This document shows, piece after piece, positions 3,021-43,668 of a DNA stretch of 64,000 bases; within the stretch, counting starts at the first letter, position 1; each line of letters opens with the position of its first letter. Source of the stretch: Diphasiastrum complanatum (Eukaryota > Streptophyta > Lycopodiopsida > Lycopodiales > Lycopodiaceae); contig CM055103.1 in NCBI GenBank assembly GCA_029204225.1, forward strand, positions 54,765,426-54,829,425, in the 5' to 3' direction. The notes below the pieces were generated by a model. It was not told the origin of the DNA and made no database searches. It worked only from the letters and a program-made list of their open reading frames with translations. A program made the position numbers and the translations under genes.

Positions 3021-4932
3021 ATATGCATTAGTATCTCATTAGAATATAAAGGACAATGCATTTATTGGAATGTCGTTGGGCTCAATATTGACATGATGAA
3101 CAATGAGAGTTCCAATGTAAAGTCCAAAATTGCAGACTCTTTGATGCTAGACATTTAGAAAATTTTAGATAAAACTATAGTTCAGGGTGCCTGTGATTTT
3201 GCTGGTATTAGCAGAGAAGCATATTCAACAATATTTCAACTTATTAGGGATGCCTTTAAGCCAATTCGAATTAGAAAAGTCCCTATCCCTAAGTCATATC
3301 ACTTGAAGACAGAGAGGAATACATTGAACTTAAGTATACATAAAATCATTTGTACCCCATTTCATATAGAGGAAGTGTATGAAATTGATGGAAGATCCAT
3401 GTCATATAATTCATCAAACAACTTCTTTGTTGATCTAAATCACTTGTTAACATACATGGTCACATTTTATGATATAACCTTAGAAAAGGTGAATGGTAAA
3501 ATAATCATAGCACTTAAGTTAGATGAGTCAGAGATTGTGAAAGGGCAGAAGATGGAGAGAATTAGTATAACTCTCATGAATGGTGCACTATCACAAACAG
3601 TGGACCAAGGAGACTTCAAATTTAGTGTCCAGTCCGAAAATGATATATGATGGTTGGCAGCTTTTCAGGTAATTATTTCATTTATTAACTAAGTTTACTT
3701 CCGTACCCTGGTTCATAATTCATATTTAACTATATTGGTTTTATGCATTGGACAGAAACTGAAGGAGAATCACGATATATTATCATGGATATTCTCTAGG
3801 ACATCTTACTCTCGGATCATCAAGGACCATATGGAAGGAGGATTTCTCAGAGTTTCAGGATTTGGAGACTTCCAAGTTGAATGGCACTTAGCAGGTAATT
3901 TAAAATCACTGAAATGCATGTATAGTGTGTCTCACGGTGCTACATCTAAACATCCTTGTTTATACTATCTGAAAATGGCAAAAGATGTATCTAGAAGTAC
4001 ATGAATTACTAGAGAAAATACAAATCCAAACTAGAAGCCAATATTGCCTATTCCCTTGAAAAATGTGCATGTTTGCAATCCTCATGCAAAAGTTAGGATA
4101 ATAGAAAAGCTCGTTTATCTTCATATAGTTTTTGCATGGAATAGTAAGCCAGCATGAGTTGCGAAAGAAGCTATTTGTCGGTTAGAAGATGTTTTATCAA
4201 AAGCAGGACTGCATACGGGACATGTCAAAATACAAAAAGATGAAAAGCTTTTTGGAAAGTCAGAAAATATGCCAACTAAGCCAAGCATCGGAGGAGCAAA
4301 AGCACGTCAATTCCTATCAAACCATACTGGTAAGAATTCAAAAATTCAACACTCAGTCTGGAAAGAAATTGTTGCTGCCACTGAAGACTTGGGAGTGACC
4401 GACAAATCAAGATTATTGAAAGTTGATGTATGGAGAAAGCTTGACAATATGATTAAGATATTAAAAAAAGACAAATTTTCTGATACTAATAAGAGAGCTT
4501 TACAAAAAACTTGCGTCGATTTTGTTGATGCAGTATCAAAAGCATGGGGAGAAGATCACATCACTCATTACATGGTTAGTATGCATGCTCAGAGCAGCTA
4601 TCAATTAAATTATATATTTTGATCCAAGCATAAGACTGACATTATGATTTTGACATGTGCAGCAAATACTAAGAGATCATACAACATCTTTTGCAAACAC
4701 ATATGGAAGCCTAAGTGTCTGGTCATCACAAGGGATGGAGAAGTCACATTGGCAATCACGGGCAGCATTTCATCGAAATACATAGCATGGAGGAACCAAT
4801 GAAAAAAACAACTATATTTGCCAATTATTTCAGTGGTTCTACCGTAGAGTTCAAATTCGACAGATCACAAAATCTTTAAATTACGACAAATTTAGAAAAG
4901 CTTGCAAATTTATTGAGCAACATAGAAGCTAA
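3021..4932 (+). pseudogene. Decayed spliced DDE/D-like transposase gene
   Basis: Three exons share one frame and join at phase 0: 3021-3668, 3756-4574 and 4663-4932. Introns start GT and end CAG. In-frame stops (TAG 3156, TGA 3648, TGA 4002 and others, TAG in exon 3) show that it is dead. Exon 1 has a LKLDESEI motif after a beta-rich stretch, which could hold the first catalytic Asp. Exon 2 has GNLKSLKCMYSVSHGATSK followed by a Cys, the pattern of the second Asp region in RAG/KDZ-like and related cut-and-paste transposases. It continues with HVCNPHAKVRIIEKL, then a helical region. Exon 3 has GMEKSHWQSRAAFHRNT, a stop, HGGT and then LFQWFYRRVQ. I infer a DDE/D transposase of a family I cannot name. 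A convergent gene follows on the minus strand. Confidence 0.55.
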
Positions 4933-4998: not shown

Positions 4999-6471
4999 TC
5001 ATTCAGAGGTATCTGATTCATCCTCTTGTCCAATTGTTGTGCTATCATGTAGTAATTCTCTACTTGCATATGCATCCAGAAGATGCGCATTGTTTTTGTT
5101 ACCACTCAATTCTATATATGTTGCATACAATGAATAATGGGAACTCCTTAATGGTACATTCCCATCTACAAATCCTAATATGTTCAAAACATAAGATCTC
5201 TTCACAAAAATTATTTTACACAGCCATTATCATTGTCTCTCCAATTGGACTGAATTTGGAATGAGCAATGCAAATTTCATTATTTTGAAAGTGCCTCAAG
5301 TAGTGGCCGTGGCCACTATCTCTGTGGAAAGATGATGAATGTTGTCTGAAGCCCCCTTGACGAGTAGCAAAGTCATTGATGAAAAGTGTATTCTGCAATT
5401 ACAAAATTGGAGTTTTTAGCACAGTTTGAATTCTGCAAAACACATACATCAGATAAACAAACGTACAGTAAAACTTTTAAGCTTACACATTCATCATCAT
5501 CTGTTGCAACTAGATCAAGATGATCTATATTGTGACCACCAATTGAAGTAGAGTAATCAACAAGTTTCATAACTGATGGACGAGGGAATCCTAGTTGGGC
5601 TTGGAATCTAATGAATTCCTCATCAAAAGGCAAACTTCGTCCATGAGCACTAACATTTGCCATAGCCCAGGACAAACATTCCTCACTAGTCAGAATTCCC
5701 TCCTCACCATCATGTCAATGCCCGACACTAAGTCTTTGGTTTCAAAATCAACAATGTCAGAGAACTCAATATTGGTGCTTGACAATAAACAAAGCACCTC
5801 ATCCTCACGATAATAAAAAAAAACACATAAATATGTCATTGAGGGTTTGAACTACCGTCAAACTTGGGTAGATCTAGCTTGGGTGTTCTCTTCTCAAAAT
5901 GAGATCCATTAGACCCAATGAAAGCATCCCTCAACATATCAGTATCTACATTCAAATATTCAGTCTCTTTATCAGGAGTATCAATCAAGAAATGACTGAT
6001 ATCCTTTATGGAATGTTCAGTAGTGGAGGATGAAGGGATCTCAGTATCAGGAATCAAAGTATCTGACTATATTGGGATTTGTACCAAAAAGAAAAAAACA
6101 AATCTGGTCTGATACTCTAGAAAACAACATTTCAAATTACAAACATTACATTCATTGGAATTCTTGAATTGATCAAAAAGTTTAGTGTACATCTTGTCTA
6201 GCCACTGCTTATAATGAGGAAAAGTATATACAAGATCAGTGAAATGCATAAATGACAAATTGGATGCAGAGATTGGAAGGATACTAACTATATCCCTGAA
6301 TCTGATATACTGGTCATAAAAAACATCATGACTCCGTTGTGCCATACTGAACACATTTAGAAAAGGCTGGAAGAGGGACTTGAAGTGCTCTAGGCGCTTG
6401 GTTATACCGAACTTAGAAGAGAGAAAGTTAGACAATAAATGCTCACAATAAGGATTAGTGGAGGAAGCCAT
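4999..6471 (-). pseudogene. Unrecognised multi-exon gene convergent with the transposase
   Basis: Minus-strand coding blocks start at an ATG at 6471. The blocks are about 6471-6130 (helical, beginning MASSTNPYCEHLL), about 6064-5836 (acidic/Ser-rich linker ending in LDLPKFDGSS), about 5790-5475 (includes EECLSWAMANVSAHGRS and a run ending in DDDEC before a GT donor), about 5400-5216 (His/Gly-rich, RDSGHGHYLRH) and about 5205-4999 (acidic C-terminus ending EDESDTSE). Frame changes near 5700 and 5215 look like indels or unrecognised splices. The two genes end about 65 bp apart tail to tail, the layout of a two-gene DNA transposon. No domain is recognised. The protein could be the element's accessory factor. 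Confidence 0.4.
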
Positions 6472-6540
6472 TGAATAGTATCAGATCTGTGCGAGAGGGG
6501 AGTAATTGATGATGAAGGGAGAACACTATGCACGCACAGA

Positions 6541-6567
6541 AGCGATATGTATGAACGACATATCGCT
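6541..6567. repeat. Hairpin of the GCGATATG motif
   Basis: AGCGATATGT (6541-6550) and its exact reverse complement (6558-6567) are separated by 7 bases. The same core recurs near 6622, 6670 (as CCGATATG), 7088 (inverted) and 7215 (as GCGATACG), always next to a GCGCACAAG/A-like string. They all lie between the divergent genes that start at 6471 and 7562. Confidence 0.7.
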
Positions 6568-6689
6568 CTTGTGCGCGTAAAGAAATAGGCACAATAAGGG
6601 AACAAACAAGGCGCGCACAGAAGCGATATGTGACAAAAATAGATATAAAATATGCGCGCAAAGAACCGATATGTGAGTCAATGGTCAAC

Positions 6690-6990
6690 TGCCCACATGT
6701 TGTACGATGATTCGCTGAAAATTGTCCACACGTGTGCAGCCGTACAGGATGCATGTGTCACATTCTGATTCGTTGTTGCTTGACACATGTCGTAGGATGA
6801 TTCGATAAAAATATTCCACACATGTGAATCCGTACAAGAGGCATGTCTCACATTCTGATTCGTTGTCGCTTGACACGTGTCGTAAGATGATTCGAAAAAA
6901 TATACCACACGTGTAAAGCCATGTGTCACATTCTGATTGGATGCATTGTGACATGTGTCGATGGCTGATTCGTTACTTTTCAGACACGTT
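6690..6990. repeat. 90-bp tandem repeats carrying G-box palindromes
   Basis: About three and a half head-to-tail units of 90 bp are present, each containing a GTGTCACATTCTGATTCG-like core. Each unit holds two near-perfect palindromes of the CACGTG (G-box/ABRE) type, such as CACACGTGTG and GACACGTGTC. The block lies 0.2-0.5 kb upstream of the minus-strand gene starting at 6471 and about 0.6 kb upstream of the plus-strand protease gene. It may act as a shared enhancer or as a transposase-binding array. The long open frame across it (7058-6678, -) is only a product of the 90-bp period. Confidence 0.75.
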
Positions 6991-7561
6991 CGGACAACAC
7001 GTGTGACTACACACATGAAAAAAAATTGTTTACACATGTTCACGAGCTCGAAGTCCATTCACTTGTTTTCTTCCGTTTTTTGTGCCATATCGCTTCTATG
7101 TGTGTGCTCTTTCCTCCGTTATCTCCGTCTCCTTCTGCGTGCGCACAAGAGTGATATTATTGTCGTACATATCATTTTTTGTCTCGTTGTTTTTGTTTTC
7201 CACACTCGCACAAGAGCGATACGTCCTAGACTGCCCTCATGTCTAGGGTCAAATAGAACCGAAGGAATTTCTTCTATCCTGGGGCTGTATCCACTAGTAC
7301 CCCTTCTGTTAATTCTCCATGGTAGACCAGGCGTAACAAGAGCAGATGGCTCTCTGAGATTAAGAAATATGAAAGATCCACCTTGCTCCTGATACCCAGG
7401 GCTACAGAAATATCCGTCTGATTACCCGAGATAATCTGCAGAGTGCTATCAGGTTCACACTTGGAGTATTGGAGTGTTTGCAAGAGTTCACAAAAGACTA
7501 TTTGGCTCTTTTTTTTGAGGATTGTTTTTTGCTTTTCATCCATGCCAAGTGAGTGATCATA

Positions 7562-8759
7562 ATGCCCAAATATTTTCAAATCCTATATAGAATGAGGGAG
7601 AGATTTTGTAGACTTCACAAGGGTGAATCCGATGCTCCCCGGGACAAACCCCTTGATGTCAAACTTGTAGCATATTTAGATTCTGATGATTATTTAAAGT
7701 TTGAGAAAGATATTTCAAATGTGATAGATAGTAACGGCATGCCAATCCTCTTCCAAATAGAAGAGATTGGTTATACTCTTAATTTTAGAATTTCAGATTG
7801 CTTGCAAACGAAGGATAGAAGGGCCTCTATTAGCAATCCAGTGATTGAGGCTGGTCTCCCCTTGTTGCAATATGATATAGCAAGGGATTCCATGAAAGAA
7901 GTGGTGCTTCTCAGCAATTTTTTTCCTGCAAGGCATAAAGGACAACAACGACACTTTGTTGCACTGTATTTTTGGTGCTTGCTCACCTACTGTGAAGTTT
8001 TTGTTGATGCCATATCATACCAAGTATGTCTATCTCTTTACTTGTCAAATTCATTACTTGTCTAATTCTTTACTTTTAATTATTGTATCGTTTATCTACT
8101 GAAATTCTTCATGATTTTTTGTAGCAATCACTGGAGCTTAATTGTAATTTCTATAAAAATCACGGATAATAATATCGTAAATCTTTTTTGTGTAAAGATG
8201 AATTCTGCCAGCAACACACATAAGGATATTGACTCGTTGCTGCCGAAGATATGTAAATATTTTCCAATAGAGAATCCCACGGCAGGGTAATGTGAAATTG
8301 TGAGCATTGAGGTGATCATTGAACATTTTTGGTGTATTTTTGTTTATCGTCATTGTTAAGCATCAATATCTTCATCCCATTATTAATCAATTGAATGTAT
8401 TGTAGACAAAATGACTCATTTAGTTGTGCGTGGTATACTCTATACAATGCAAAGTTATTTTTCTAGTGTTACAATCTTCAGGAGGATGTTGATATTTCAA
8501 ATGTGAGTTATTAGCCCTTTCTATTTCATCTTTATGTAAACTATGGTTTGTTATTAATATTCATCTAATACAATGTTTATTGCAATTTGCCCTCGGTGAT
8601 TATACTGCTGGCAAAGTGTACAGATTTCGACAAGAGATCATTCCCAGACTATTGGCCAGGTCGACTGCTGGACCAAAGACTGATGCTCGGTTGTCTAAGC
8701 CAGACGATGTTCAGATTTTAAATGAGGTTGGGCAATTTGTAAATATCCAAGCTGAATAG
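7562..8759 (+). pseudogene. C48/Ulp1-like cysteine protease gene, transposon-type
   Basis: The ATG at 7562 follows an in-frame stop. Exon 1 (7562-8023) is followed by GTATG. Exon 2 (8125-8289) contains NHWSLIVISIK, the His-Trp box of Ulp1/SENP-type peptidases, then VKMNSASNTHKD where the family usually has a catalytic Asp (..DS..sHk). Exon 3 (8406 on) has RQNDSFSCAWYTLY, the Gln and catalytic Cys box. The last block ends in a basic tail at TAG 8759. The enzyme family cleaves SUMO or ubiquitin-like modifiers, and plant transposons often carry copies. Exon 1 ends at phase 0 but exon 2 needs another phase, and exon 3 runs into TAG, so the copy is probably inactive. Asn seems to replace the usual Asp. 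Confidence 0.6.
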
Positions 8760-28177: not shown

Positions 28178-28479
28178 CTGGACCTTTTTCCTGACTATCT
28201 CGCATTACTTGCAGTCTCAGAAGCTCCTCTCTTTTCTTCTCATAAACCATCAATCATCTACATGTATCCAGAGTTCGAGTAATCTGCAATCTCCTTTGGT
28301 TTTTAGGATCACATTACATTAACTATTTGTAAGCATATGACGCTACTGTTCCATTTACGCCCTTCTACTGAGAACTAGATTGATCTTCCTGCATCTTATT
28401 AGTATTGCAAAAGCTCCAACTTCCTCTTGGTCTTTCGCAATTTCTATCTAGGCTAGTTCGCTTGCTGTTCATTTTTAGC

Positions 28480-29853
28480 ATGGCTTTAAGCTGTACTCCC
28501 ATTGCAAGCATGGCATCTGCAGAATCTATCCTTTTTCGTGGGCATTCGAGGTTTCAGCTTGGCGCGGAAAATCTCCTTGATGCACATTTCAAGAACGGCT
28601 TTCGTAAAAGTAATCTACTGGTAGCTGCAACTTGTACGTCTACGCGAGAAGCCCAATTTTCTGCGCGCAGAGAAAGTGTTGCCACTACTGGTGAAGCAAT
28701 ACATCCAGTGAGGAGAGGTTTTGCTGACTGGAAGAGTGCATCTTCGACCCTGACAAGTCAATGGGTAAAGCAATTGGAGATTGAGAGCATTTTCAGAAAT
28801 TTGCAGCCTCCAAATGCAGTACGCTCATCTTCATTAGAGCAATTGTCAAAGACCCGGTCGGGTGGATTCATCGAGAATACGGCCTTGCCAATTTCCAGGC
28901 GCTTGTCTAATCTTCCCCAGCCCCTCTCGATCAATGGTCTGACTGCATCAAGGGATAGAAGGTCCACGGTTCTGAGAGTAGCGCATCCTGGTGCCGCAGG
29001 AGCTCACAGCGAGGCAGCAGCCATCAAAGCTTATCCTGACTGCGAATCACTGCCATGTGGCAAGTTTGAAGTTCCCTTCGATGCTGTCGAGCTTTGTCTT
29101 GCAGATAGAGCTGTTCTACCAATAGAAAACTCTCTTGGGGGAAGTATTCATAAAAATTACGATCTTCTTTTACAACATCGATTGCATATAGTTGGCGAGG
29201 TGCAGCTTCCTGTTCGTCACTGCCTGCTCGCACTTCCTGGGACGACAAAGAAGGAGCTCAAGCGAGTCCTAAGTCATCCGCAGGCTCTATCACAATGCGA
29301 GCACAAATTGTCAAGTTTAGGAATGATACCAGAGGCTGTCAGTGACACGGCTACTGCAGCTCGATTAGTTGCTGCCAACAATCTTCGTGATACTGGCGCC
29401 ATTGCTAGCTCAAGAGCGGCAAGCCTATATGGTCTGGATATTGTTCAGAATGACTTTCAGGATTATTCTGGCAACACAACTCGATTCCTCATGGTAGCAC
29501 GAGAGCCGGTTATTCCCAGAACGGATAGGAAATTCAAGACAAGCATTGTAATCGCTCTGGAAAATGAGAGTGAAGGTCTCTTCAGAGCCCTTGCGGTATT
29601 TGCATTGCGAAATATGAATCTGACGAAGATCGAAAGTAGACCACAGATGAGAAAGCCTCTCCATGTCGTGGACAAAGATAGCAATGTCGGCCACTGTATG
29701 ACATCAAAATGTTTTGAATACCTTTTTTATATCGATTTCGAGGGATCGATGGCAGAGCGACAAGCCCAAAATGCACTTAAGGAATTAGAAGAGGTTGCTA
29801 GCTTCTTAAGAGTATTGGGTTGTTATCCAATGGACGTTCCTGAAATATCATAA
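28480..29853 (+). CDS. ADT: Arogenate/prephenate dehydratase, plastid type, single exon
   Basis: The 457-residue protein decarboxylates and dehydrates arogenate (and possibly prephenate) in the last step of phenylalanine synthesis in plastids. I chose ATG 28480 (MALSCTPIASM..) because the open frame before it has no ATG. Residues 1 to about 160 are Ser/Arg-rich and transit-peptide-like, longer than usual. The catalytic domain spans about 160-350: VAHPGAAGAHSEAAA, AVLPIENSLGGSIHKNYDLL (216-221 ENSLGG), LSHPQALSQCE, SDTATAAR and the catalytic TRF motif at 334-336. The ACT regulatory domain (about 351-457) has the ESRP phenylalanine-binding motif at 385-388 and ends FLRVLGCYPMD. There is no intron, as in some plant ADT genes. 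Most plant enzymes read VAYQGVPGAYSEAAA where this one has three or four changes. It looks intact and is the only clear host gene here. Confidence 0.93.
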   Translation: MALSCTPIASMASAESILFRGHSRFQLGAENLLDAHFKNGFRKSNLLVAATCTSTREAQFSARRESVATTGEAIHPVRRGFADWKSASSTLTSQWVKQLEIESIFRNLQPPNAVRSSSLEQLSKTRSGGFIENTALPISRRLSNLPQPLSINGLTASRDRRSTVLRVAHPGAAGAHSEAAAIKAYPDCESLPCGKFEVPFDAVELCLADRAVLPIENSLGGSIHKNYDLLLQHRLHIVGEVQLPVRHCLLALPGTTKKELKRVLSHPQALSQCEHKLSSLGMIPEAVSDTATAARLVAANNLRDTGAIASSRAASLYGLDIVQNDFQDYSGNTTRFLMVAREPVIPRTDRKFKTSIVIALENESEGLFRALAVFALRNMNLTKIESRPQMRKPLHVVDKDSNVGHCMTSKCFEYLFYIDFEGSMAERQAQNALKELEEVASFLRVLGCYPMDVPEIS

Positions 29854-31304
29854 ATCTTCAAGCGATCTTTATGTTTTGACTTTTGATATGCTACAATCTT
29901 TATGTTTTGACTTTTATTATTCTGCAATTGTACACTCGCCTGAAAGACTGATCCATATCTGGTAGCTCGAATCGAATCACTCCTTGGATGAGACATTTAA
30001 TTTCTTTCAGCAAACTCCAAAGCGTCGATTCTTTGAAGCAGGATCAAGTTTGCACCAAAACCTTGCAGTTTAATTTTGAACGAGCAAGAAGAATTCTCTA
30101 GTAACCCTAGAACAAGAGGGGCCACCTCGTTCCACCTCAAAATATGTAGGCAATAATAGTATACTGCAGTACAGAACACCTATAGCATTATCCTTAGTGG
30201 ATATTTTTGACGGAAAGCAACATTCCGAAGTCCCCGCATGGCTCTAAGGAACAATGTTACTGTTCATAGTACATGCTCACGTGTCTATACATTTGTGTTG
30301 TAGTTTAGTTCGATGTGAAATATTGAGCCTTCTCTTATTGCAATTGCAACAAGAAATTAACAAATTCCACTGAATATGACTACGAGTCTGCATCATGATT
30401 GATCAGCCATTGAAAGTACACCATGAATATGGCTTTCAATGCAAAGAATATGTATGTGGAGCATAATATCTGATTAAAGTTTAATAATAATATGATCTGC
30501 TTGAGCAACAATGATGTGCTCGAACAACTATTTCCTGATCGCCAACTATATTTAGTATCTTGGCATAAAATTGACTATCTGGCTTTTAGTGCCCAACTCA
30601 CGGCCACCAAATCACAACACATCCAACACCCTTTGTGTCATCTCGATTCTCATCACTCTACCGTAGCTACCGTAGCTATCTCACATCAGAATCAATGACA
30701 TCTTTATCAGTGTATACTAATAAAGCATACTTTCATTAATGGAAGATGCGAAATCATCATCAATGTACAAAAAGATGAAATTATATAAAATGACAATGCC
30801 AAACATCTAAGATAAATTAAGTTGAAAAGTTTAATAAAATTTAAGCCATTCAATTAATTGCTTGACGTAAATCAATAACTAGAATAGTATTGTCACTAAT
30901 AGGTAATGCATGAAGCTTTGAAGGAGCCGCTTATGTAAATTGAGCTCGTCAAGAATTGAAAGCGCTTGTGAACGTTGCAAGGCCATACAAATACGTGGAC
31001 CGAATGACGGATGGTAACGTAACATTTTGTCTCTGGTGTTTCACAACAACATTTGCACATAATGAAAAAAAATCATTAAATATCTTGTGAGTGAAGACAT
31101 CCACTGCGTGAGATGCAACAGCCCCTTGCGTGGTGGAAGAACGATGAAGAAGGTCTTGACTAGAGGGATCATCGATAACATCTCCAAGAGTGTGAATTCC
31201 CTCACAAGGTCAACTTGTCAACGAAATGATTGTGAAGCAAGCCATAGTAAAATGTGTGTTTGCAAACCACTATCATAAGCAATAGCAGAAAGAACATCAC
31301 GAAT
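29854..31304. other. 3' flank of the dehydratase, no further gene seen
   Basis: Right after the stop, a TCTTTATGTTTTGACTTTT unit occurs twice (about 29868 and 29889). The rest has only short chance frames. A Cys/Arg-containing frame at about 31087-31275 is not recognised. Confidence 0.4.
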
Positions 31305-31800
31305 CACTACAACACCCGGTACGATTTGCGATGTGTTTTGCGACGTGAATCACGAGCTGAAATTTTTTTTAATTCGTCGCAAACGTCGAAAAAACACGTC
31401 GCTATAAAGTCATCGGAATCCGACGTCCCTAAAACACGTCGCAATCCGACAAACACAACCTGCCGGAATCCGAAAACAAAAACTCCGATGATTGAAAGGC
31501 AATCCGACGTGGATGTCGCAAGACGTCGCTTCTGATCTAACGTGGACGTCGCATTGCGACGTCCAAAAATCCAGTCGGGTTTCGACGTCTGTAGATATAG
31601 AATGATGCATAAAATTGTCCGACGGATGTCTGACGTCCATCCGACGTCTACTTGGATGTCGGATTCCGATGTCTCAAAAACACGTCAGAATCCGACATCT
31701 GTTAACGGAATGATAAAAAAGAAGGTCCGACGTGTGTCTGACGTCTATCCGACGCGTTTGGATGTTGGATTCCGACGTCCCAAATTAGGTAAAACTAAAA
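31305..31800. repeat. Subterminal repeats of CACTA 2
   Basis: Many copies of CACGTCG, TCCGACGTC and GTCGGATTCCGAC-like units in both orientations are present within 500 bp of the TIR. They resemble the TnpA-binding arrays of CACTA elements, but with a GC-rich core unlike the AT-rich one of CACTA 1. Open frames here are repeat artefacts. Confidence 0.8.
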
Positions 31801-32460
31801 ATAAAAAATGCGTAAAAAATAGGGCGCGCATTTTTATCGAGCTGTTCTTGGAGTTGAGTTCTTGGAGAAGAGATGTTCGTGAATTGTTTTTGAAACAAGA
31901 TTTTTGAGTTGCATTCAACATTTGGATCAAACAACAAACTAAGCATGAGGTACTTTTCATTCTTAAATTACTTTTCATTTACTATTTTATTGCATTACTT
32001 CATGTCCATTTTGAATGACAATACTTTATTGCATTGCTTTATGCACATCATAAATTTCATTTAGATTTTTATATATGATATTGATTGTTGTTTTGAAATC
32101 CGACATTGCACATGGTTTAAATTCTTAGTTGGTTATTACGTCAATCCACATCTCGAAATTCGACATTGCAATTTTTAAAAAAAGAACATTGCGCATATAA
32201 AAGTAATAACAATATAGCACGATCATTTGCAATAATAATATTTTCATAATATCAATCAATGTATTACAAAATTGATGTTTTAATGTCGCATGAGTCTTTC
32301 TAGATCTAACATCAATTATAAACCTAATCTACTCGTCGTCGTCGTGACGTCCAGTCTGCATGAACACAAGCAAACAAACTACATTAATATTTAATGCTTG
32401 ATCGTATTAAATTAAATAAGATTGACGTCGGAATACAAACCACATTAGTATGAATACAGA

Positions 32461-33621
32461 AACTAGTACTTACATTTGGAGGATGACTCTCGCTCTTTAG
32501 TTTGTTGACTAATGCGTCGTATTATTCCCTAAAGGCAAATTCGTATTCCTCCTTAGTTGGCAGACGTCCATAGTCCGCCAACTATCCATGCATGCAATTT
32601 AAGTTGAAATTAATTTAGGGCTACATTGGGAATGGAAGTTATAAATTGGAGTTGAAGAAATATCTTGGATGTTTATAAAGAATTATGTCAGAAAGTAGTG
32701 CCAGACTTGAGCGGTTAGAGCATTATCAAAAGATACATGAAATTCAAGGGAATTCAAGAAGCAATTCAGAGTTCATAACAAAAAGATAAAAAAATTTGTA
32801 GTAGTTTTGACAATCCTTATTCAAATCTTCCTTTACAATTGTTTCAAATATATCTAAACCAAAACTTCCTTTGCCAGATGTGGAGGCTCCTGCACCAATA
32901 TTTACTTCTATTTCGAAGATTATATATGGTAGCTAGTCATAATGCATATTAAAAAATAAAAGCATATGAAATCAAAGATAAACTATAAGAGTAGTGTAAG
33001 TTCACTTACCATGCTTGCTTGCAATCCTGCCTTTCCGCTCGAGCCCAACCTAGGATTGCCTATCCCATGCATCGTAGCGACCCCAACATCTTTCTGAATC
33101 TTGTATTTATCTGGTGTTCGTTCATCCACTTTTACACGGTGTCAATCATTTCTTGAACACCAAGAGGGCTTGGATTGCCCGTCCCTATAAGCTCGTCGTG
33201 CCATATCATGATGATGCCTAATCCATAAGCTCATATGCTTATGAATTTCCTTCTCCTCGAATTCTTCTTCTTGTTGGAATTCGTCACGAAGGGTATCAAT
33301 AACCTGTCGTTTATCGGTGGCAGGTTGTTCAGACCAATTACTAAACAATCTGTCGCCAAAATGGCATTGGCATAAAGAATAGAGCCGGTCCAAAACCACC
33401 TTTTCTTTTCTATTGGCAATTATATTACCTTGAGGATCCACGTCATAATAAGAATTTGTGGATAACTCTTCGGTGGGGGCGGGAGCCGCGGCCGCTTGTG
33501 AGGGACCACCCTCATCTTGGCTAAACATACTTTGAAGTTGTTCTTTTTGCCCAAAAGTTAATGATTCATATAAATTTTTAACATAGTCTCTCGAGCTTTC
33601 ACCACTGCCTGACCCCGACAT
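32461..33621 (-). pseudogene. CACTA ORF2 / En-Spm transposase-like gene, copy in CACTA 2
   Basis: The start is ATG 33621 (MSGSGSGESSRDYV). Exon 1 runs to 33010 before GTAAGTG. It has an acidic/Ala-rich linker, the DVDPQGNIIANRK strand, an Arg/His-rich helical block with HHHDMARRAYRDG, SKPSWCSRND followed by TGA (33144-33142) where Trp is expected, and RLGSSGKAGLQAS. Exon 2 (about 32582-32461) has LADYGRLPTKEEYEFAFRE, a stop, and YDALVNKL. The protein is homologous throughout to the gene at 53021-52144 and of PF03004 type. Two single-base stops are the main lesions I see. It is transcribed away from the TNP2 gene at 34072. Confidence 0.75.
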
Positions 33622-34071
33622 GATTACTACATTCATAAACATACAATACATTACAATAAACCCTAATATATTGAAATGAAGGACAAAAAAAAAATTGACT
33701 ACAAAACTTTAATGCATATTGGAGTGGGACTTTCATAACTGTGATAACAAAAGAAGAGAGATATGCGTTTAGAGCCTGCACCAAGATGCAAAAGAATCAT
33801 ATAAGCGACAACATATAAGAATAGTACTATCTAAAAATTAAAATATTAGAAACATACAATAACTATATGCTAGTTGTGTTTTGTACTTGTGCATATATGC
33901 AGTTTATCACAATGAGATGAATTAAATTCAGATCAGTGTAGCAATGAAGACACTACTCAAGTTAACTGGGTAAGTAATAAACATGCATGTTTTCTTGTTC
34001 ATAAAAACTTTGTTATTATAACTTAAACTATTTTGCTAAAGTGACATGTACTTGATTTTTGTTTCTCGTAG

Positions 34072-35154
34072 AGAATTATTTTCAAAATAAAATATGGTGG
34101 ACATGCCTCAAGTGTGATGGACAAAAGATGCGTGAAATACGCGTTGTTGAAAATCATTTGTGAAAGTTTGGACGAAAAGAAAAAGGTCAACCATCGAATT
34201 TGGAAGACGTTGAGGTTTGTTAACTTTATATGATTGTTTTTTATTATAATCTTCATCAATCTATATATGTCACTTATGGAATTTGTTTCATGTGTGTAGC
34301 CAATATATCAAATGTCATTCCACAGAGTTGATCCATCCGTGTTTAGTTACAATCAACGTCAAGTTTTGATAGACATGAGAAAACAAAGAACGAAACAAAT
34401 TGAAGAGGCAAACACAATTGGAAAAAAGAGTAATCAACTTGATTCTAATGATTATGATGATGAGGTGCAACACGATGAAGCAATGCACAACATGTTTGAA
34501 TCTTACTTTGAAACAAATGAGAATGATGATATGCATGCATCTTCTAATGAAAACGGAGATCACAAACAATTTGAGATGGATGAAGACGATATTCTATTGC
34601 GCAAGGAGGCAGACACTCCTCTATATCCTGGAGCATCCATTTCGAGACTAGCTACGTCAATTCTTATTCTAAACCTTCAAGCAACATACAAATGGAGTGG
34701 TCGTAGCATGACATCTTCATTCGGATACTTAATGCATAACACAACTATTATACTTTATAGCGAATTTACATTAAGTTAAAAAAATTTTCTTTTCTAACAA
34801 CTCACATTGCTCTTTTTTTAGGTTGTTGCATCGAATACTTTCGAAAGAAAATGTGATACCTAAAACGTAAAAAGAAGCACGAAAGATGATGATCGTGCTT
34901 GAAATGGATTATGACACAATACATGCATGTCCAGAAGACCATGTTCTATATAGAGGTGAGCATTCAGAAAAGCTTCAATGTCCAATGTGTAACACTTCAC
35001 GTTTTCGAGATGACGTACAAGGGGATAAAGTGCCACGAAAAGTGTTACGAAATTTTCCAATTATCCCACGATTGTAACGTTTATTTCGGTGTAAATCTTT
35101 GGCACAACTAATGGATTGGCATGTCAAAAATCGATCTACGGATGATGTGATGTG
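34072..35154 (+). pseudogene. TNP2-type CACTA transposase, 5' part
   Basis: Exon 34072-34214 encodes the TNP2 N-terminal zinc region (KIWWTCLKCDGQ, then VENHL, stop, KFGRKEKG). The next exon starts after the AG at about 34300 and runs to 34779: an acidic linker, then EADTPLYPGASISRLAT and ATYKWSGRSM, the A..PLYPG.. and ..WS..S boxes of TNP2. The frame 34886-35077 has MDYDTIHACPEDHVLYRGEH, CPMCNTSRFRDD and VPRKVLRNFPIIPRL, the L.YE.IHACP..C and CP.C..SR..., K.LRYFPLIPRL boxes. It continues after a frame change to MDWHVKNRSTDDVM and ends at the breakpoint at 35154. The catalytic core is missing. Confidence 0.85.
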
Positions 35155-35358
35155 AGTACTAAGTGATTCACTTGCCCACCTCCACTCCTCGTTAGATGCA
35201 TATCGCTACCATGCGCCCAAGGACCCACATACTAGTACAGCTTCCCCCCCCGCGCGTCGTGGCAATACGCCATCTCTCATATTGCCATCACGCACCTCCC
35301 CTGTCGGATACCTACTTTTTCTTCTCGTTGGTGCATCATATCGATACCCTAGCTTGAA

Positions 35359-35913
35359 ATGGCCCGTACGAAGCAGACAACACGCCTTACCACATTTGCC
35401 CCCCCTCCTAGCCCTCTTGTATAAAGGGCAGTGGGCACTGGTAGGAGAGTAGGTTGACCCAAAAGACCATGGTTAAGGGATATCAGGAGACTTCTGAGGA
35501 AAACGAATCTTCTGATTCCCCGTGCTCCTTTTTACAGGTCTGTGAGATTAGTAACAAGGTCACTCTCAGATGATGTTCGCTGGAACATAACATCTTTGGA
35601 AGCCCTCCATACTGCCTATGAGGACTTTCAAGTCAAATTCTTTCAGGATTCCATGCTTTGCACAGTGCACGCTAAGAGAGTTACCCTCATGCCTCAAGAC
35701 ATGCACCTTGTCATGAAGCTGAGGAGTACATACGATCAGGTCTTTAAGAGTGGCTTCACCTCTAGGCCACCACCTACAGAGAGAGGTCATATTCCTCAAC
35801 AAAGAAGGAGGAAGCAGACCAAGCCCACCAGGCCTGCCAAGCAAAGGGTGGTACTCCGTGAATCACCACCCCCCCCTCATATCTCTCGTCCTTTGGTTGG
35901 ACCATCACACTAG
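35359..35913 (+). pseudogene. Histone H3/CENH3-like intronless gene with C-terminal extension
   Basis: From ATG 35359 one frame reads MARTKQT (exact H3 start), TRLTT.., then TAA (35422), TAA-free sequence, TGA (35455), and a complete H3 histone fold: WLRDIRRLLRK (alpha N), LLIPRAPFYR (alpha 1), SDDVRWNITSLEALHTAYED (loop 1 and alpha 2) and DSMLCTVHAKRVTLMPQD (alpha 2 end, loop 2, alpha 3). By my hand alignment about 34 of 83 fold residues match canonical H3. Trp in VRW, EDF, DSMLC and RVTLM are closer to plant CENH3 than to H3, but loop 1 has no CENH3-type insertion. A Pro/Arg/Lys-rich tail of about 55 residues follows (not found in H3) to TAG 35913. There are no introns. It is probably a retro-copied or captured gene beside CACTA 2. 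The two stops in the tail suggest a pseudogene. Confidence 0.75.
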
Positions 35914-36431
35914 TCTGCAATGCCTTCTTCTCCTCCCACCACCCCTAACTATTCAAGTAGTTCCTCTTCCATTCCCTCTATTCCATCCCACAATAACGAG
36001 GATATGAACTCGGTTGTAGATAAAATAATATCGGATCTAGATTTAAGTTTAATAGGTGATTTTTATAAGGATCTTTGTGTAAGATTTTCTGTTGATCCCA
36101 ATCTGTTTAAAGATGAACTCCTTAAAGTCTACCCATGCCGAAATGGACGTGATGTACAACAGAATGTTGCCATTTTTGCCAAGGCTAGATGGGGCCACTA
36201 TAAATAGCCACCTGGAGATTGTTGATGCAGAAGTAAGTATTTCTCATCAAGTATCTGATAGGTAATATGATCTGTTTTTTTCAAAGTGCACAACTAACCT
36301 ATTATACATTTTGTGATTGAAGTCAGCTCAGCAACATGATGGACATAGCTGTGGATGGTTCTCCATCCGCAATGTACAGGACTTCTTAGAGTGGTACATC
36401 ATGCAATCCAGGGATCCAGATATACGAAAGG
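35914..36431 (+). pseudogene. Continuation of the H3-like frame and a C48-like Cys-box exon
   Basis: After TAG 35911-35913 the same frame stays open to TAG 36205-36207 (Ser/Pro linker, then an acidic helical block with LIGDFYKDLCVRFSVDPN). A GTAAGT follows near 36231. After an AG near 36324 an exon reads AQQHDGHSCGWFSIRNVQDF to a GTAAAT donor near 36432. QQ.D..SCGW resembles the Gln/Cys box of C48-like proteases and matches the copies at 8406 and 20214. The His box is not seen. It may be a captured chimera or two unrelated remnants. Confidence 0.4.
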
Positions 36432-36486
36432 TAAATAGACTAGTGAATGGCCTAACTGAGTTATTTTCAATTTAGTTTCCAATAAG

Positions 36487-36504
36487 CCGAGTCAATTGAC
36501 TCGG
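36487..36504. repeat. Perfect 18-bp palindrome
   Basis: CCGAGTCAATTGACTCGG reads the same on both strands, in otherwise non-coding DNA just after the C48-like exon. No function is known. Confidence 0.9.
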
Positions 36505-36889
36505 TTCTTTTGGATTTGCAATATAAATGTTGAGCATTTTCAATGAATGAGATATATGAGTTTCGTCAATAGATGTTGATGAACTTATTATCTCATGCAA
36601 CACCAAGTTGAGCTACGAAAACGGGAGGCCAATCAAGTCCACATCTGACACTAGTGCAGGGTGGAGATAATCCATATTACTTTGAGCTGTAAATAATAGA
36701 ATAAATAGAGATATACATTTTTCTATGTAATGCCCTGTGAATAATTATGGCCATATAGAAAGATAGAGACAATGAGAAAAAAACATCCATTTTCAAATAC
36801 AGGACACACATGTACATTCTCAGAAAATGAGAAATATATTGATATTTATAAGAGCTTTTACAGATCTTGTATCATGGTTGCTCTATTAT

Positions 36890-38596
36890 CTAAACAATTC
36901 CACCCAAATCTTTGCATTTGATTTTCTCTTCATGTCTTTTAGGTATCTGCACAAACATACATTAATCAGATTACAGTTAGTGATCCGAATATTGACAAAA
37001 AGGATAATGAATACAAATTCATGGATTTCACATACCAATTTTCCATCCAATATAAAGCTGAAATATTCGAGGATATCTTGCTGTAAAAGTGTCAATTCCG
37101 TTCTAATATAGAATAAGGTCCAGTCTTGCTAAACCTCAATAGTAATAAGTAAATCCCCATTTGCCATGATATCAATGCATATACGATTAGTGTGTCCAAT
37201 GTTGTCTAGATCTTGATCTAATTGGGCCCGAGTACCATTGTGTTCTTTCCATCTCTGATAATGAAACACCATACTAAGCATTTTCTTTTCTATATTGTAT
37301 CTAAATGATATGGATGAATGTTTGATTCTACAAGAAATATCTTCAGTGGATCTTATATCCCAACCTTTGTTCATGAATTTGAATAAAAAATCATCTGATA
37401 GATTTTTGCAAACAAACAATGTGGGAGTTTAATGCACTTCCGTGTTTGAAAAAGAGCTGACAAACAATGACATTGGAAAAAACCAGCTTAAGCGCACATT
37501 TCTTGATCCAGTATTAGTTATGAGTGACTTTTGTACATCATTATATAGCTTGGAACGGAAGCATTTTATTATATTGTTGTTGACTGCAATCCACCACATG
37601 TTATCTTGAAAATTAGGTAAAGGTATATACTCTAGTTTTCTCATTCCTCCATTTGTGTCTGGAATATACATAGCATCACAAAAAATAATTTCAGAATCTA
37701 CAAGTTCTTTTGTCGTTCGTCCTTTGTATTGCAATTTGCCAATTTCTGAATGGATGACATCTATAATACCTTTCAACACAAGACAAGTAACCTATAGTAG
37801 AAAACTCACTTCCCAACCATCATTGCCCATTAATATTCCTCCTGCATACCTTAACCAACCATACATGCCCACGACCCATAAAATTTTTTAGTGAACAAGA
37901 CTTATAAATAATTCAACATGATTAGAAACCAACAACAATTTTCAAAATTATTAGAAACCTAAACGAGCAACTACTACTAGAAACTTTAGCCAACAACTAC
38001 TATTTATAATCACAAAATTTGGAACTGAAATCTTTACACAACATAATGCTATGCAACATGCACTAAAGAATATCCCTAAAATGTACAAAAATGTTAATTG
38101 TTCATGTAATCCCATGAATATGACAACAAACTCTATTTATGCATATCCATCAAAAATTCTGAAGCAACATGAGGGCTACAATGTAATATTGCAATTTATG
38201 AGGTTATGAAATTGGTGTCCGATATGTGAAACATGACTAGTATTACCCGTGGGCAAGCTTTCTGAGATCTTTCCTTGCAACTTTTCATGACATCTTATAA
38301 TTGCATCATCAACAGCATTGATAAAAGCAGCACTGCCCCAAACATCATCATCATCCATCAAATTGATTTTCCTTAATATTGCATGTCTTGAAGTGGTTTC
38401 TGCATTATAATTTGTCAAGCACACATTTTTTGGGCATTGCATTCCGACCTCCAAAACATTCCTATCACCTGCTAAAATATTCTTTGGAGAAATTGCATCA
38501 GAAGCTGTGACACATTTATTCCCTTGTTCCTGTGATGCTATTTCAATTGAATCAGGTGCAGAAGGAAGCTCACAAAGACCAACTATAGGAGTTTTG
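36890..38596 (-). pseudogene. Unrecognised spliced gene, interrupted by the composite Copia
   Basis: Three minus-strand blocks are seen. At 38596-38176 a frame enters from the Copia junction (KTPIVGLCELPSAPDS..) and includes MDDDDVWGSAAFINAVDDAI. At 37779-37036 one frame has two stops (TAA 37431, TAG 37131), with NFQDNMWWIAVNNN, RLSWFFPMSLFVSS and FHYQRWKEHNGTRAQ, and ends at a GTATGTG donor. At 36946-36890 a short exon after TGCAG (IPKRHEEKIKCKD) ends in TAG. Exon-intron borders are good. I do not recognise the family. The sequence reads like a nuclear protein gene with one lost exon-intron context beyond 46425. The Copia landed at its TTTTG and the 3' part was left to decay. Confidence 0.45.
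38592..38596. repeat. Target site duplication TTTTG, left
   Basis: TTTTG directly precedes the first LTR (TGTGAAGAATTG). The same five bases follow the last LTR at 46425-46429. Confidence 0.85.
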
Positions 38597-39297
38597 TGTG
38601 AAGAATTGCCAAAAGTTGGCAAATCTAGCTTGATCAAAAACCATGTAGAATAGTGTAAATTGTGTACACAAGTGGGTCCCGCACATGTGAGGCCATGATG
38701 CCACATGGAAAACCCATCCTAATGTAGGTTAGGTCAATTCAAGAGAGTTGATCATGTCTATTTGGTGGTCATCCCTATTTTATAGGACCTACACCTAAGT
38801 TTAAGGTGAAAATTTGACCAACTAGCTACCTACCAAGCATAACTCTAGGATCTAGGCTAGGGTTTCATTTTAGGGCAAGAAGGGTGAGTTAACTACCTTA
38901 TTACATGCTGGAAATCCACCTAACTTCAAGAAGGAAGTCGAATTTGCTATGTATTCCAAGCTCCCATAGTGAGAAGATAGAAACTTTTTGGAGCTCATTG
39001 GCAATCTCAAGCTAGTTCACTATGTACATTGAGTTTTTGTGATCCAAATGAAACCAAATCAATTTCTACTTGTTTCTCAAATTGAAGGCCGTACTACAGC
39101 CTATAGTACACATGTGTGGGCTCGGATTTCAATTTTTATCAATGCTTTTGATTGTTAATGCTTGTTGTTTGTCAAATTACCAATCTAGATCAACTTTTTT
39201 GTGTCTAGTGTTTTGATAGATTGTTAAGCAAGCATCCAATCACTCTTGTGGATCTTTTGTAGATCCATTTATGGTCCTAAAGTACAGTACTTTCACA
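38597..39297 (+). repeat. LTR A of the composite Copia, 701 bp
   Basis: Starts TGTGAAGAATTGCC and ends AGTACTTTCACA. The primer site TGGTATCAGAGCC follows at once (39298-39310). Confidence 0.93.
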
Positions 39298-39310
39298 TGG
39301 TATCAGAGCC
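39298..39310 (+). other. Primer binding site, first internal region
   Basis: TGGTATCAGAGCC is the usual initiator-tRNA-Met PBS of plant Copia elements, directly after LTR A. The equivalent site after LTR B (42864) reads TGGTATCAAAGCC, with one change. Confidence 0.9.
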
Positions 39311-40102
39311 AAGTACAAGAGCATAAGCCATTGATCTAATGCAAATCCATTTTTAGCAAGTTTTGGTTCTAAAAGCTAGTATTGAGAGGGCAAGCTAGAA
39401 TCTTGATTTTGGTGAGGATATTTGATCCCAAACTTGGTAGGGGTCCAAATCCGTACTGTCCACATGTGTGGGCACCTCTGAACCTGCATTTAATGCATGG
39501 TATTCATTTGATCCAAAAAAATTCAATTTGTGAGCTGTTCGTGTAATTTTTGGTGGAGATCCTAGGATAATCTACCAAGATCATTTGCCATTGATTAGAT
39601 TTGACTTTGTTTCATGGAATCTAATTAGTCTAGGTTGAGTTCAAGTCCTATTAAGGTTAAAAACAGGTCTTGAAAGTACACCAAGAAGGAAGAAAGAGAT
39701 TAAGTCATTTTTTTGTCCAAAAATAGCCAAAATTGGCAAGATTTGATTGTAAGTAGATTTCACATCATCTTATCTTCATTCCAACTTTGTGAGGGAGTGC
39801 TAGAACTGAGATTATAAGTCCAATTTTTGGATTAGAAATCTAATTTGAGTGAAAAACTACAAGAGAGAGACCTTAGTGAGTTTCTAGAGACAATCAAATC
39901 CATTTCTTGGCAAGATTTGTTTGAAAGTAATTTTCACTTCATCTTATCTTCATTCCAGCTTTGTGAGGGAGTGATAGAACTGTGATTATAAGTCCATTTG
40001 TTGGTTTAGAAATCAAATTTGAGTGAAACACTGCAAGTGTGAGACCTTTGTGAGTTTCAAGTCAATCAAATCTATTTTTTGTTTGTAGAAGTCACTAGTA
40101 AG

Positions 40103-41972
40103 ATGGGATCTGCTGGAGCATACCTTCTATAAGCTAGTGAGAGATTGAAATCTACAAATTATGCTATTTGGAAGGTTAGTATGGAGTCACTCTTGGTGCT
40201 CCAAGACCTTTATGAGTTCTTGATTGAAGATGAAGATGAACCTCTAGGTGCACAAGAGTTAGCTAGATACAAGAAGAGATCTAGGCTTGCACTTCATTGT
40301 GTGAAGATGAATGTGAGCAATGATTTGTTGAGAGAAGTATCAGCATGTACTAGTGCTAAGGAGGCTTGGGAGTCTTTAAAATCAATCTATGAGTCTAGCA
40401 ACACTTCTAGAGTTCTTATGCTTAGAAATCAGATTTTGCAAAGCATGAAGAGAAGTGAGGAGAGTGCACATGATTATGTACTTATAATCAAGTCTCTAAA
40501 TAGGGAGTTGGCTTCCATTGGAGAGAAGATTCATGATGGAGAGCTTGTACAAATTGTTCTTAGGTCTAGGAGATGACTTTGCAAATTTGGTCCAAAGGTT
40601 TGCCATCCAAGACACTTTGCCAACTATAGAAAAACTTCACAGTGTATTAGTGGCTGAAGAGTGTAGGATGCTCCATGCAAAACCTAGGATGAGTTCCTTG
40701 TCTTTGCAGGATGGTGATGAGAAAGCCAATTTCTCATTCAAGGGCAAAAAGAAGACCAATGGAAATAAGAAGCATCCAAAGGAGGCCAACAAATAGAATG
40801 ATGCATCAAGCTCAAAGGACAAGTCAAAGCAAAAATGCTTCTTTTGTGGAAAGAAGGGGCATTATGCATCTGAATGTTACAAGAGGCTAAGAGCACAAGT
40901 GGAGGACAAACAAGGAAACCTTGCAAAGGAGGAGGAGGAGGAGGATAAAGTAGATGTATTCTTGATGGCATCTACATCCTCACCAACAAGCAATAGCAAT
41001 TCAAGAGACAATTGGTGGATCGACAGTGGGGCTAGCTCCCACATGTCTTGTGAGAAGGAATTTTTCTCAACCTTATACTCTTTCAATGATGCTAAAAAGT
41101 TTGTCTTTACTGCAAATGATGAAGAGTGTAGGATAGATGGTGTTGGCACCATCTCTTTGTATCTAGAATCCTCAAAATTCATGGATCTAAAAAATGTCCT
41201 TTATGTACCATCAATCACCAAGAATATGCTTAGTGTTGGTCTACTCTTAGAAAGTGGTTTGGATGTCCACTTTAAGCATGTTGTTTGCTTCATCTTGAAG
41301 AATGATGTTTGCATTGCAAAGGGATTTAAACATGGAAGATTGTTTAAGTTGGAAGCTAGTGTTTCTTTTGAAAGAATGAGCTTGGCAAAGGAGGAGATCT
41401 TGGCAAAGTGTGACCTTGCTTGCATTGAGGAGGAGCATCAAAAGGAGGAAGATCTTGAGGATCAGCCTCAAAGCATGAGAGTTCCAAGGGAGTCCTCAAT
41501 GACAATGGCCGAGTCATCAAATTGCATGCAAATTATCCATTCAAGCGTGCATCTTGCAAGGGTGGTGAGCATTGGAGAGTCTACTATCTTTGAATACTTT
41601 TTGGAAAGTAGTAGCAGACATGAGGTGACTTGTTTCTTATCTTTAAGATTCATAGTGTTTATTACTTTGTATGACAAGACAATGAAATGGGATGCTTTGA
41701 AATCTACATTTGTTGTTGATAAAGCAATTTCATTGGATAACTATTTTTGTAATAGTTTGAATAGAGTCATAAAAGATGAAACATCATTTTCTTTGGAAAT
41801 CTTTGTGTCCACATGCTTTGTGCATGATCATTCCAATGTAAGGTCCAAAGATTATCCTATTTCAATGACAGGAATAATGGTAGTGTTTTGCTCTTCAGGT
41901 AGAGATTGTAAAATCTACTTGTTTTCAACCAAAGAATTTGTCAATGGTGGAAATGTGATCTTTCAAGAGTGA
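40103..41972 (+). pseudogene. Copia gag-protease polyprotein, first internal copy
   Basis: From ATG 40103 the frame has TAA at 40130-40132, then the UBN2-type gag (STNYAIWKVSMESLL, ..NTSRVLMLRNQILQSM). A one-base loss near 40563 shifts the frame. Gag goes on from 40518 to TAG 40796 and past it to a CCHC knuckle (CFFCGKKGHYASEC, about 40832-40873). The frame at 40899-41972 has the intact protease box WWIDSGASSHMS and VLYVPSITKNMLSVG. The remaining 230 residues match no pol domain except perhaps a weak STKEFVNGGNVIFQE, like the end of the Copia integrase region. Its lesions differ from those of the second copy. Confidence 0.85.
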
Positions 41973-42162
41973 AAGATTTGTAAACTTGAAGAAGCACCTT
42001 TGGATCAACACCTTATTCAATTCATTGATGTTTTGGAGTCAAGTCAAGTGGAGGATCGAGCTCAAGACCCGAGGACTCCAAGAAGAATTTTGAGTATCAA
42101 GATGGAGCCATCAAGGCTCAATCATATGGATCAAGCAAGGCAAGTTGTCTTTGGCAACATTA

Positions 42163-42863
42163 TGTGAAGAATTGCCAAAAATTGGCAAATCTAGCTTGAT
42201 CAAAAACCATGTAGAATAGTGTAAATTGTGTACACAAGTGGGTCCCACACATGTGAGGCAATGATGCCACATGGGAAACCCATCCTAATGTAGGTTAGGT
42301 CAAGTCAAGAGAGTTGGTCATGTCTATTTGGTGGTCATCCCTACTCTATAGGACCTACACCTAAGTTTAAGGTGAAAATTTGACCAACTAGCTACCTACC
42401 AAGCATAACTCTACGAAATAGACTAGGGTTTCATTTTAGGTCAAGGAGAGTGAGTTAACTTCCTTATTACATGCTGGAAATCCACCTAACATCAAGAAGG
42501 AAGTCAAATTTGCTATGTATTCCCTCTCTCCATAGTGAGAAGATAGAAAATTTTTGGAGCTCATTGGCAATCTCAAGCTAGTTCACTATGTACATTGAGT
42601 TTTTGTGATCCAAATGAAACCAAATAAATTTCTATTTGTTTATCAGGTTGAAGGCCGTACTACAGCCTGTAGTACACACGTGTGGGCTCGAATTTCAATG
42701 TTTAGTAATGCTTTTGATAGTTAATGCTTGTTGTTTGTCAAATTGCCAATCTAGATCAACTTTTTTGTGTCTAGTTTTTTGATAGATTGTTAAGCAAGCA
42801 TCCAATCACTCTTGTGGATCTTTTGTAGATCCATTTATGGTCCTAAAGTACAGTACTTTCACA
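42163..42863 (+). repeat. LTR B of the composite Copia, 701 bp
   Basis: Same length and ends as LTR A, very similar. It abuts truncated internal sequence (..GGCAACATTA) with no polypurine tract before it. Confidence 0.92.
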
Positions 42864-43668
42864 TGGTATCAAAGCCAAGTACAAGAGCATAAGCCATTGA
42901 TCCAATGCAAATCTATTTTTAGCAAGTTTTGGTGCTAAGAGCTAGTATGGAGAGGGCAAGCTAGAATCTTGATTCTGGTGAAGAGATTTGATCCCAAACT
43001 TGGTAGGGGTCCAAATCCGTACTGTCCACATGTGTGGGCACCTCTGAACCTGCATTTAATGCAAGGTATTCATTTGATCCAAAAAAATTCAATTTGTGAG
43101 CTATTGGTGTAATTTTTGGTGGAGATCCTAGGATAATCTACCAAGATCATTTGCCATTGATTAGATTTGAATTTGTTTCATGGAATCTAATTAATCTAGG
43201 CTGAGTTCAAGTCCTATTAAGTTTAGAAACAGGTCTTGAAAGTACACCAAGAAGGAAAAAAGAGATTAAGTCATTTTTTTGTCCAAAAATAGCCAAAATT
43301 GGCAAGATTTGATTGTAAGTAGATTTCACATCATCTTATCTTCATTCCAACTTTGTGAGGGAGTTCTAGAACTGAGATTATAAGTCCAATTTTTGGATTA
43401 GAAATCTAATTTGAGTGAAAAACTACAAGAGAGAGACCTTGGTGAGTTTCTAGAGACAATCAAATCCATTTCTTGGCAAGATTTGTTTGAAAGTAATTTT
43501 CACTTCATCTTATCTTCATTCCAGCTTTGTGAGGGAGTGATAGAACTGTGATTATAAGTCCATTTGTTGGATTAGAAATCAAATTTGAGTGAAACACTGC
43601 AAGTGTGAGACCTTTGTGAGTTTCAAGTCAATCAAATTTATTTCTTGTTTGTAGAAGTCACTAGTAAG

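Follow-up and report, generated by a model that had tools for sequence, protein, structure and literature searches.

Introduction

Ulp1 domains in plant transposons have long been known, yet they are unexplained. According to one review (PMC13317346), these domains accompany the anti-silencing genes of VANDAL and Kaonashi elements, and the KIUs are described as VANC genes with a transduplicated Ulp1 domain. The word 'histone' is absent from the main text of this review and of a grapevine paper on such elements. Neither an H3-Ulp1 fusion nor a transposon-encoded H3 was found among the matches listed for the openly licensed literature.

We looked at a stretch of 64,000 nucleotides from Diphasiastrum complanatum (contig C12, positions 54765426-54829425, hereafter the window) and at the genome around it (1,744,706,496 bases in 5176 contigs). 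The window contains an H3-like gene at 35359-35913 (copy 1), which an earlier note suggested could be a captured or retro-copied centromeric histone. What we describe here is no such one-off event but an intron-bearing gene of a multi-copy element, in which the histone is fused to an Ulp1/C48 domain.

Results

Copy 1 contains an H3-type histone fold

The copy 1 frame opens with an exact MARTKQT start, is interrupted by two in-frame stops and then stays open for 151 codons, up to the TAG at 35911 (Table 1). Pfam recognized PF00125 on residues 5-89 of this open block (2.7e-22), and the best PDB relatives shown by phmmer were H3 chains, the first of them giving an ungapped alignment of 86 residues (5.7e-19). 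Together, the PF00125 match and the ungapped H3-type alignment place the domain within the histone H3 fold. It is not a canonical H3, since K4 is kept, K9 is replaced and the protein runs on past alpha-3. The earlier note had correctly read the start, the two stops, a fold that is diverged yet H3-type, and the basic tail. Its end of the gene at 35913 was too early, as the gene runs on beyond this point, and the C-terminal extension, which is real, is no foreign tail but a linker to a fused protease-like domain. Structure prediction gave mean pLDDT values of 48.9 for copy 1 alone and 41.0 with a 7-row alignment, both of low confidence. The helices of the 7-row model (42-54, 60-73, 82-110 and 117-134) follow the order expected for H3, and in this model they weakly favour the H3 fold.

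When the genome was searched with the copy 1 block, all 150 scored places matched with an E value of 1.9e-54 or better (best 150 of 6842 candidates). This is therefore far beyond chance. Besides the window itself, these best 150 places were 68-92% identical to copy 1 and lay on each of contigs C1-C23. A chance ORF is ruled out by the PDB H3 match, the PF00125 match and these 150 matching places.

Table 1. Features of the window, with positions counted from its first nucleotide
Feature	Position	Strand	Basis or remark
Transposase-like gene remnants, copy-2 element	3159..4913	+	67% identical in DNA to the C10 copy gene at the same relative place (1774 bases aligned, from 3178)
Divergent gene, copy-2 element	5714..6324	-	tblastn with the C10 minus gene, 4.8e-9 and 4.4e-6
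Copy 2, diverged family B	7239..8502	+	tblastn 2e-11; GT-AG introns in phase
Copy 2, MSRVK tail start	7239	+	H3-like start
Copy 2, fold with frameshift at ~7403 and one stop	7338-7621	+	tblastn, copy 1 block against the window, 2e-11
Copy 2, exon 1	ends 8023	+	second change of frame inside
Copy 2, exon 2 (NHWSLIVIS)	8125-8286	+	GT-AG introns in fitting phase
Copy 2, exon 3 (QNDSFSCAW), one stop	from 8406	+	GT-AG introns in fitting phase
Presumed TNP2-like remnant	~34560-35155		outside the element fragment
Family-A element fragment (copy 1)	35177..37770	+	blastn against the oriented C10 locus
Copy 1, H3-like N-terminal tail, MARTKQTTRLTT...	35359..35457	+	translation of 35359-35913; in-frame TAA 35422, TGA 35455
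Copy 1, H3-type histone fold, 97 aa	35458..35748	+	PF00125, PDB H3, pN/pS 0.23 within family
Copy 1, linker, Pro/Arg/Lys-rich then Ser/Pro-rich, TAG at 35911	35749..36082	+	weaker constraint, pN/pS 0.58 (residues 98-151)
Copy 1, protease exon 2 remains (CLKMNS..TH..MD...IVDAE), then donor GTAAGT	36083..36232	+	similarity to copy 2
Copy 1, protease exon 3, Cys box SAQQHDGHSCGWFSIRN, then donor	36323..36430	+	similarity to copy 2
Part of the element's convergent gene	37009..37776	-	tblastn with C4 copy ORF, 85% over 256 residues, 5.5e-146

Copy 1 is a fragment of an element with terminal inverted repeats

The element was compared from six 8-kb loci and three upstream stretches. In a copy on contig C10 both ends were seen, about 9.06 kb apart, and the element ends are CATTAGAGGAG, with the inverted ends CATTAGAGGAGTT and CATTACAGGAGTT. 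The left end of the C10 copy is CATTAGAGGAGTTACAAACATCAAAAGGGCCGT and its right end, read inwards, is CATTACAAGGGTTCTCAAACTTAGAAGGGCCGT; the right end of a C7 copy, read the same way, is CATTACAGGAGTTCTC. Between its ends the C10 copy carries, in this order, a broken transposase-like gene (+), a gene (-), the H3-C48 gene (+) and another gene (-). The transposase-like gene is conserved and stands at a fitting place in the element; it matched no Pfam family, and nothing in the PDB significantly. At locus L035, read in gene orientation, the transposase part (first 1883 bases) runs the opposite way from that of the C10 and C7 copies. Two pieces of the window align with the complete C10 copy, 35177-36101 (88.6% over 925 aligned bases by blastn) and 36092-37770 (92.8% over 1691), and about 0.48 kb of the C10 copy is missing between them. 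The His stretch of the copy 1 protease is gone because it lay inside this internal deletion. Copy 1 is a decayed, internally deleted fragment of the ~9.06-kb terminal-inverted-repeat element. The convergent gene at its end has no Pfam match.

Queries of 200 bp from the left and right ends matched at 40 of 40 scored places each (best 40 of 867 and best 40 of 670 candidates, respectively). Twelve left ends had unrelated flanks, and at least 17 of the 40 scored left ends were followed, counted by eye, by an H3 or His-exon match on the same strand no more than 7 kb downstream. The element thus resembles a TIR DNA transposon in its inverted terminal repeats and in its dispersed copies, whose flanks are unrelated; the target-site duplication of such elements was not visible in the five copies with both ends seen (C10, C7 at 16 Mb, C7 at 63 Mb, C2 and a rearranged copy on C6). 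With a family-C query (see below), all 150 scored places matched as well (best 150 of 6480 candidates). These numbers suggest that the genome holds thousands of copies, an estimate, since only part of the first-look candidates were confirmed and different queries may have picked up some of the same ones.

The earlier note was right about a transposon context, and its link to the adjoining CACTA-type remnant did not hold. The termini CATTAGAGG are not those of a CACTA transposon, and the 3-bp duplication typical of these was not seen either. The remnant, presumed to be TNP2-like following that note, consists of pieces without Pfam recognition. Copy 1 as a passenger of a CACTA element is rejected, as the remnant breaks off at ~35155 and the element fragment begins at 35177. 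In the whole window, CACTA-type end pairs (at least 9 of 13 matches plus matching 3-bp flanks) were at chance level, with two pairs against a mean of 3.3 in 30 block shuffles; one of the two, 30894-37192, spans copy 1. A CENH3 retro-copied within a CACTA element is likewise ruled out by the introns and by the borders and ends of the element.

The window holds other remains of such elements. Copy 2 lies in one of them, together with the remnants of a putative transposase gene, which has no Pfam match. The divergent gene next to it has the place and orientation seen in the C10 copy, lies among minus-strand ORFs that span 5373-6480, and has no Pfam match either. Between the two divergent genes of this element, short direct and inverted repeats occur at 6515-7225, possibly as binding sites of an element protein. 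Pieces of the second minus gene were also found at 46805-47898 and 5-148 (1.6e-10, 2.1e-9 and 1.2e-9), so that the window contains remains of more than two such elements, and a TIR-like CATTAGAGGAGTTCTAAAT stands at 47019. Elsewhere in the window, 38594-45825 contains a probably copia-like repeat with a Pol_BBD match, in two copies that are 95-97% alike and lie ~3.57 kb from each other, and an intronless prephenate/arogenate dehydratase-like ORF lies at 28384-29853 (PF00800, 2.3e-54).

The histone is fused to an Ulp1/C48 domain

A copy on contig C4 (L033) gave a model of three exons (2902-3992, 4080-4272 and 4361-4467 of that locus) that encodes 463 aa without a stop. In this protein Pfam recognized Histone at 22-122 (8.8e-21) and Peptidase_C48 (PF02902) at 347-447 (24.7 bits, 2.4e-5). 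In copy 2 the scores, obtained from pieces joined with X, were 4.6e-10 for Histone and 21.6 bits for Peptidase_C48. The C48 scores of both copies are just above the curated cut-off of 20.7 bits, which places the domain in the Ulp1/C48 peptidases. The C4 tail reads MARTKQIAHL and not MARTKQT, and neither the final exon of the gene nor its stop codon was located in the C4 model; in a second copy modelled (C15), the exons contain many stops. In the element gene, an H3-like histone and an Ulp1/C48 domain are joined into one protein, with a basic linker between them.

The His-to-Cys stretch of the C4 C-terminal part aligned weakly to yeast Ulp1 (1euv, phmmer, E 0.23); His, Gln and Cys line up there, and Asn stands at the Ulp1 Asp. 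Since the families have Asn or Thr at this catalytic position, the His-Asp-Cys triad of Ulp1/C48 is incomplete. The protease also matched an Ulp1-family model weakly in NCBIfam (0.013). In PHROGs nothing was found for the histone, and the protease matched families of unknown function (0.0035 and 0.06); a PDB search with the copy 2 protease found nothing, and two scans of viral contigs with short peptide patterns found no viral relatives.

The fusion recurs from copy to copy. In 24 of 30 family-A loci, both the His and the Cys exon lie downstream of H3, and the middle part was found in 24; the two exons are absent from the other six (L007, L010, L011, L016, L022 and L025, where L010/L011 and L022/L025 are near-identical pairs). 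The 151-aa block was stop-free in 14 of the 30 fetched copies. Families A-D share the Cys box Q-x-D-x-[FH]-SC[GA]W, and families A and B have a common intron phase before the NxHW motif. As for the window, the copy 1 protease blocks resemble those of copy 2 to a degree reached by 0 of 5000 shuffles for each similarity, in stretches chosen by eye beforehand.

The fold is kept by selection and the tail lacks K9

Within family A, pN/pS was 0.23 in the fold and 0.58 in the linker (residues 98-151), for 16 non-redundant copies of the 20 gap-free among 30 loci. Between A and C or D, pS was 0.77-0.87 and pN 0.20-0.23. The fold is under purifying selection, with a ratio away from the neutral one, and it is better preserved than the C-terminal tail, as the earlier note had seen. 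The protease middle points in the same direction more weakly than the fold, with 57, 68 and 41 of 105 positions in agreement between A and D. Copies 1 and 2 agree at 30, 43 and 22 of 72 aligned codons for codon positions 1, 2 and 3; agreement at third positions is close to chance and second positions are conserved, a pattern expected when proteins diverge under selection.

By tblastn, the N-terminal tail matched in all 30 family-A loci, with its start in frame in 22; the count omits eight rows in which the tail is out of frame or replaced, and three pairs among the 22 are near-duplicates. Half of the in-frame tails (11) read exactly MARTKQT. The lysine at H3 position 4 is present in 21 of 22 rows. 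K9 is present in none, with 20 Leu, 1 Ile and 1 Phe in its place; position 9 is also Leu in two C loci and Pro in the D locus. ARTKQT is common to A, C and D through synonymous codons (GCC CGT ACC AAG CAG ACA; GCT CGG ACG AAG CAA ACC; GCA AGG ACT AAA CAG ACC).

Families of the H3-like gene and their relation to CENH3

Twenty further loci, picked for diversity from the H3-like matches, were examined. Families A-D keep histone and protease domains, and the fold is followed by the middle, His and Cys protease pieces in all four loci concerned (one B, two C and one D). The remaining family, E, comprises 16 loci (L050-L052, L054-L059, L061, L063, L064 and L066-L069) and consists of H3/CENH3-like genes repeated in the genome. 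No protease piece was found within 2 kb of them; a stop comes right after the fold in 15 of the 16, and in most loci the tail is Pro- or Ser/Thr-rich. Judging from sequence, family E may be either multiplied CENH3-like copies or another element. Among the best 150 of 6480 family-C matches, at least 36 crowd into C3:18.5-21.7 Mb and at least five more lie near 30 Mb, in what may be either a pericentromere or a local amplification.

In a tree of 16 short sequences, families A-D came together with an ultrafast bootstrap of 95, and A, C and D with 99, apart from any grouping with H3 pseudogenes; the split that sets A-D with CENH3 against H3 had a support of 39. Supports were taken from the Newick string, as a rerooted drawing shifts the labels. 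By comparison with Arabidopsis reference sequences, the identity to CENH3 is 48% for copy 1 and 40% for copy 2, and that to H3 is 42% and 44%, respectively. Loop 1 of plant CENH3 is two residues longer than that of H3. Here, loop 1 has the H3 length in A and is one residue longer in B and four longer in C, and the two-residue extension of plant CENH3 was not found. Some CENH3-like residues are present in the fold, as first noted; with these identities, an H3-length loop 1 in copy 1 and a support of 39, the centromeric origin suggested with them is no more than possible. The H3-like genome matches listed (13 with the canonical H3 pattern, five of which read through, then 137 others) did not let us identify the host CENH3 gene. 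Among those listed, the 13 canonical-pattern matches lie on C11 (nine), C5 (three) and C23 (one).

Discussion

That an element-borne gene joins an H3-like histone to a C48 domain is, to us, practically certain, and the whole explanation, a transposon H3-C48 fusion with an anti-silencing role, we consider fairly probable. Our best guess for the protein is a chromatin-tethered anti-silencing isopeptidase, although the mechanism is put forward tentatively. KRVT and two H3-type arginines are invariant in seven ORFs of families A-D; presumably these residues contact DNA. Because the fold keeps them, it could plausibly pair with host H4 and enter nucleosomes, above all on element DNA. The histone part would then tether a SUMO- or ubiquitin-like isopeptidase to element chromatin, and a tail without K9 could not take H3K9 methylation. 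Such a protein would be an anti-silencing factor with a role comparable to that of VANC and KIU proteins. We prefer anti-silencing as the best single guess because of the K4-type start, the lack of K9 and the Ulp1 domains that accompany VANDAL and Kaonashi anti-silencing genes. As the triad is incomplete, a binding role, unusual catalysis or self-processing would also be possible. Under a wider reading, which we regard as doubtful, a whole superfamily of transposons would make chromatin of its own, with an H3 variant that enters nucleosomes on element DNA, retains the H3K4 tail and lacks a methylatable K9, and with a built-in ubiquitin-like isopeptidase stripping silencing complexes. If true, this would be the first case of a cellular mobile element that counters silencing by means of a histone.

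The self-processing just mentioned leads to another explanation, in which C48 is a processing protease that cuts the fusion and the freed H3-like histone packages or marks element DNA or steers integration. One reading frame for histone and protease, the long linker, and the presence of the cysteine peptidase residues His, Gln and Cys would all fit; the catalytic Asp, however, is not conserved, and C48 enzymes usually act on ubiquitin-like proteins. We think this unlikely. It is very improbable that the element captured a CENH3 or H3 gene of the host and carries it as a passenger that does nothing for it. The fold is indeed 36-48% identical to plant H3 and CENH3 references, and its LLIP.A stretch resembles plant CENH3, but passenger DNA would drift, and here the fold is retained between diverged families, with pN well under pS, and the tail codons changed synonymously. 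Least probable of all is that segmental duplication spread a family of host genes, CENH3-like or SUMO-protease-like, amid incidental repeats. The open copies and the family-C cluster on C3 could be cited for it; against it stand the precise inverted ends, with unrelated flanks at 12 left ends, the 867 left and 670 right first-look candidates for ends, and copies on all of C1-C23.

Returning to the element-borne fusion with an anti-silencing role, a core-histone fold is here kept by selection inside a mobile element, and such element histones may have given rise to variant histones of the host or may compete with them. The joining of an Ulp1 domain to a histone points to chromatin as its working place and makes the anti-silencing idea directly testable.

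The histone part has LLIP.A, DSMLC and RVTLM residues in common with plant CENH3, and differs from it by the lack of the loop-1 insertion in family A, by the long C-terminal fusion and by the ARTKQT tail. Viral histones (PMC9145170) are likewise encoded by a non-cellular replicator, whereas here the gene is that of a transposon, with introns and a peptidase fusion. VANC (PMC5735166, PMC10398659) has a comparable proposed role, to relieve silencing of the element's own copies; it is described as sequence-specific, while we propose that targeting here would go by nucleosome assembly. Finally, the non-TIR MULEs of the Kaonashi (KIU)/VANDAL type and the CACTA-ULPs are also multi-copy plant DNA transposons with Ulp1/C48 (PMC13317346, PMC2528002, PMC6117577). 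In contrast to these, the element described here has its Ulp1/C48 domain fused to an H3-like histone, a transposase-like gene without a Pfam class, and ends that read CATTA and not CACTA.
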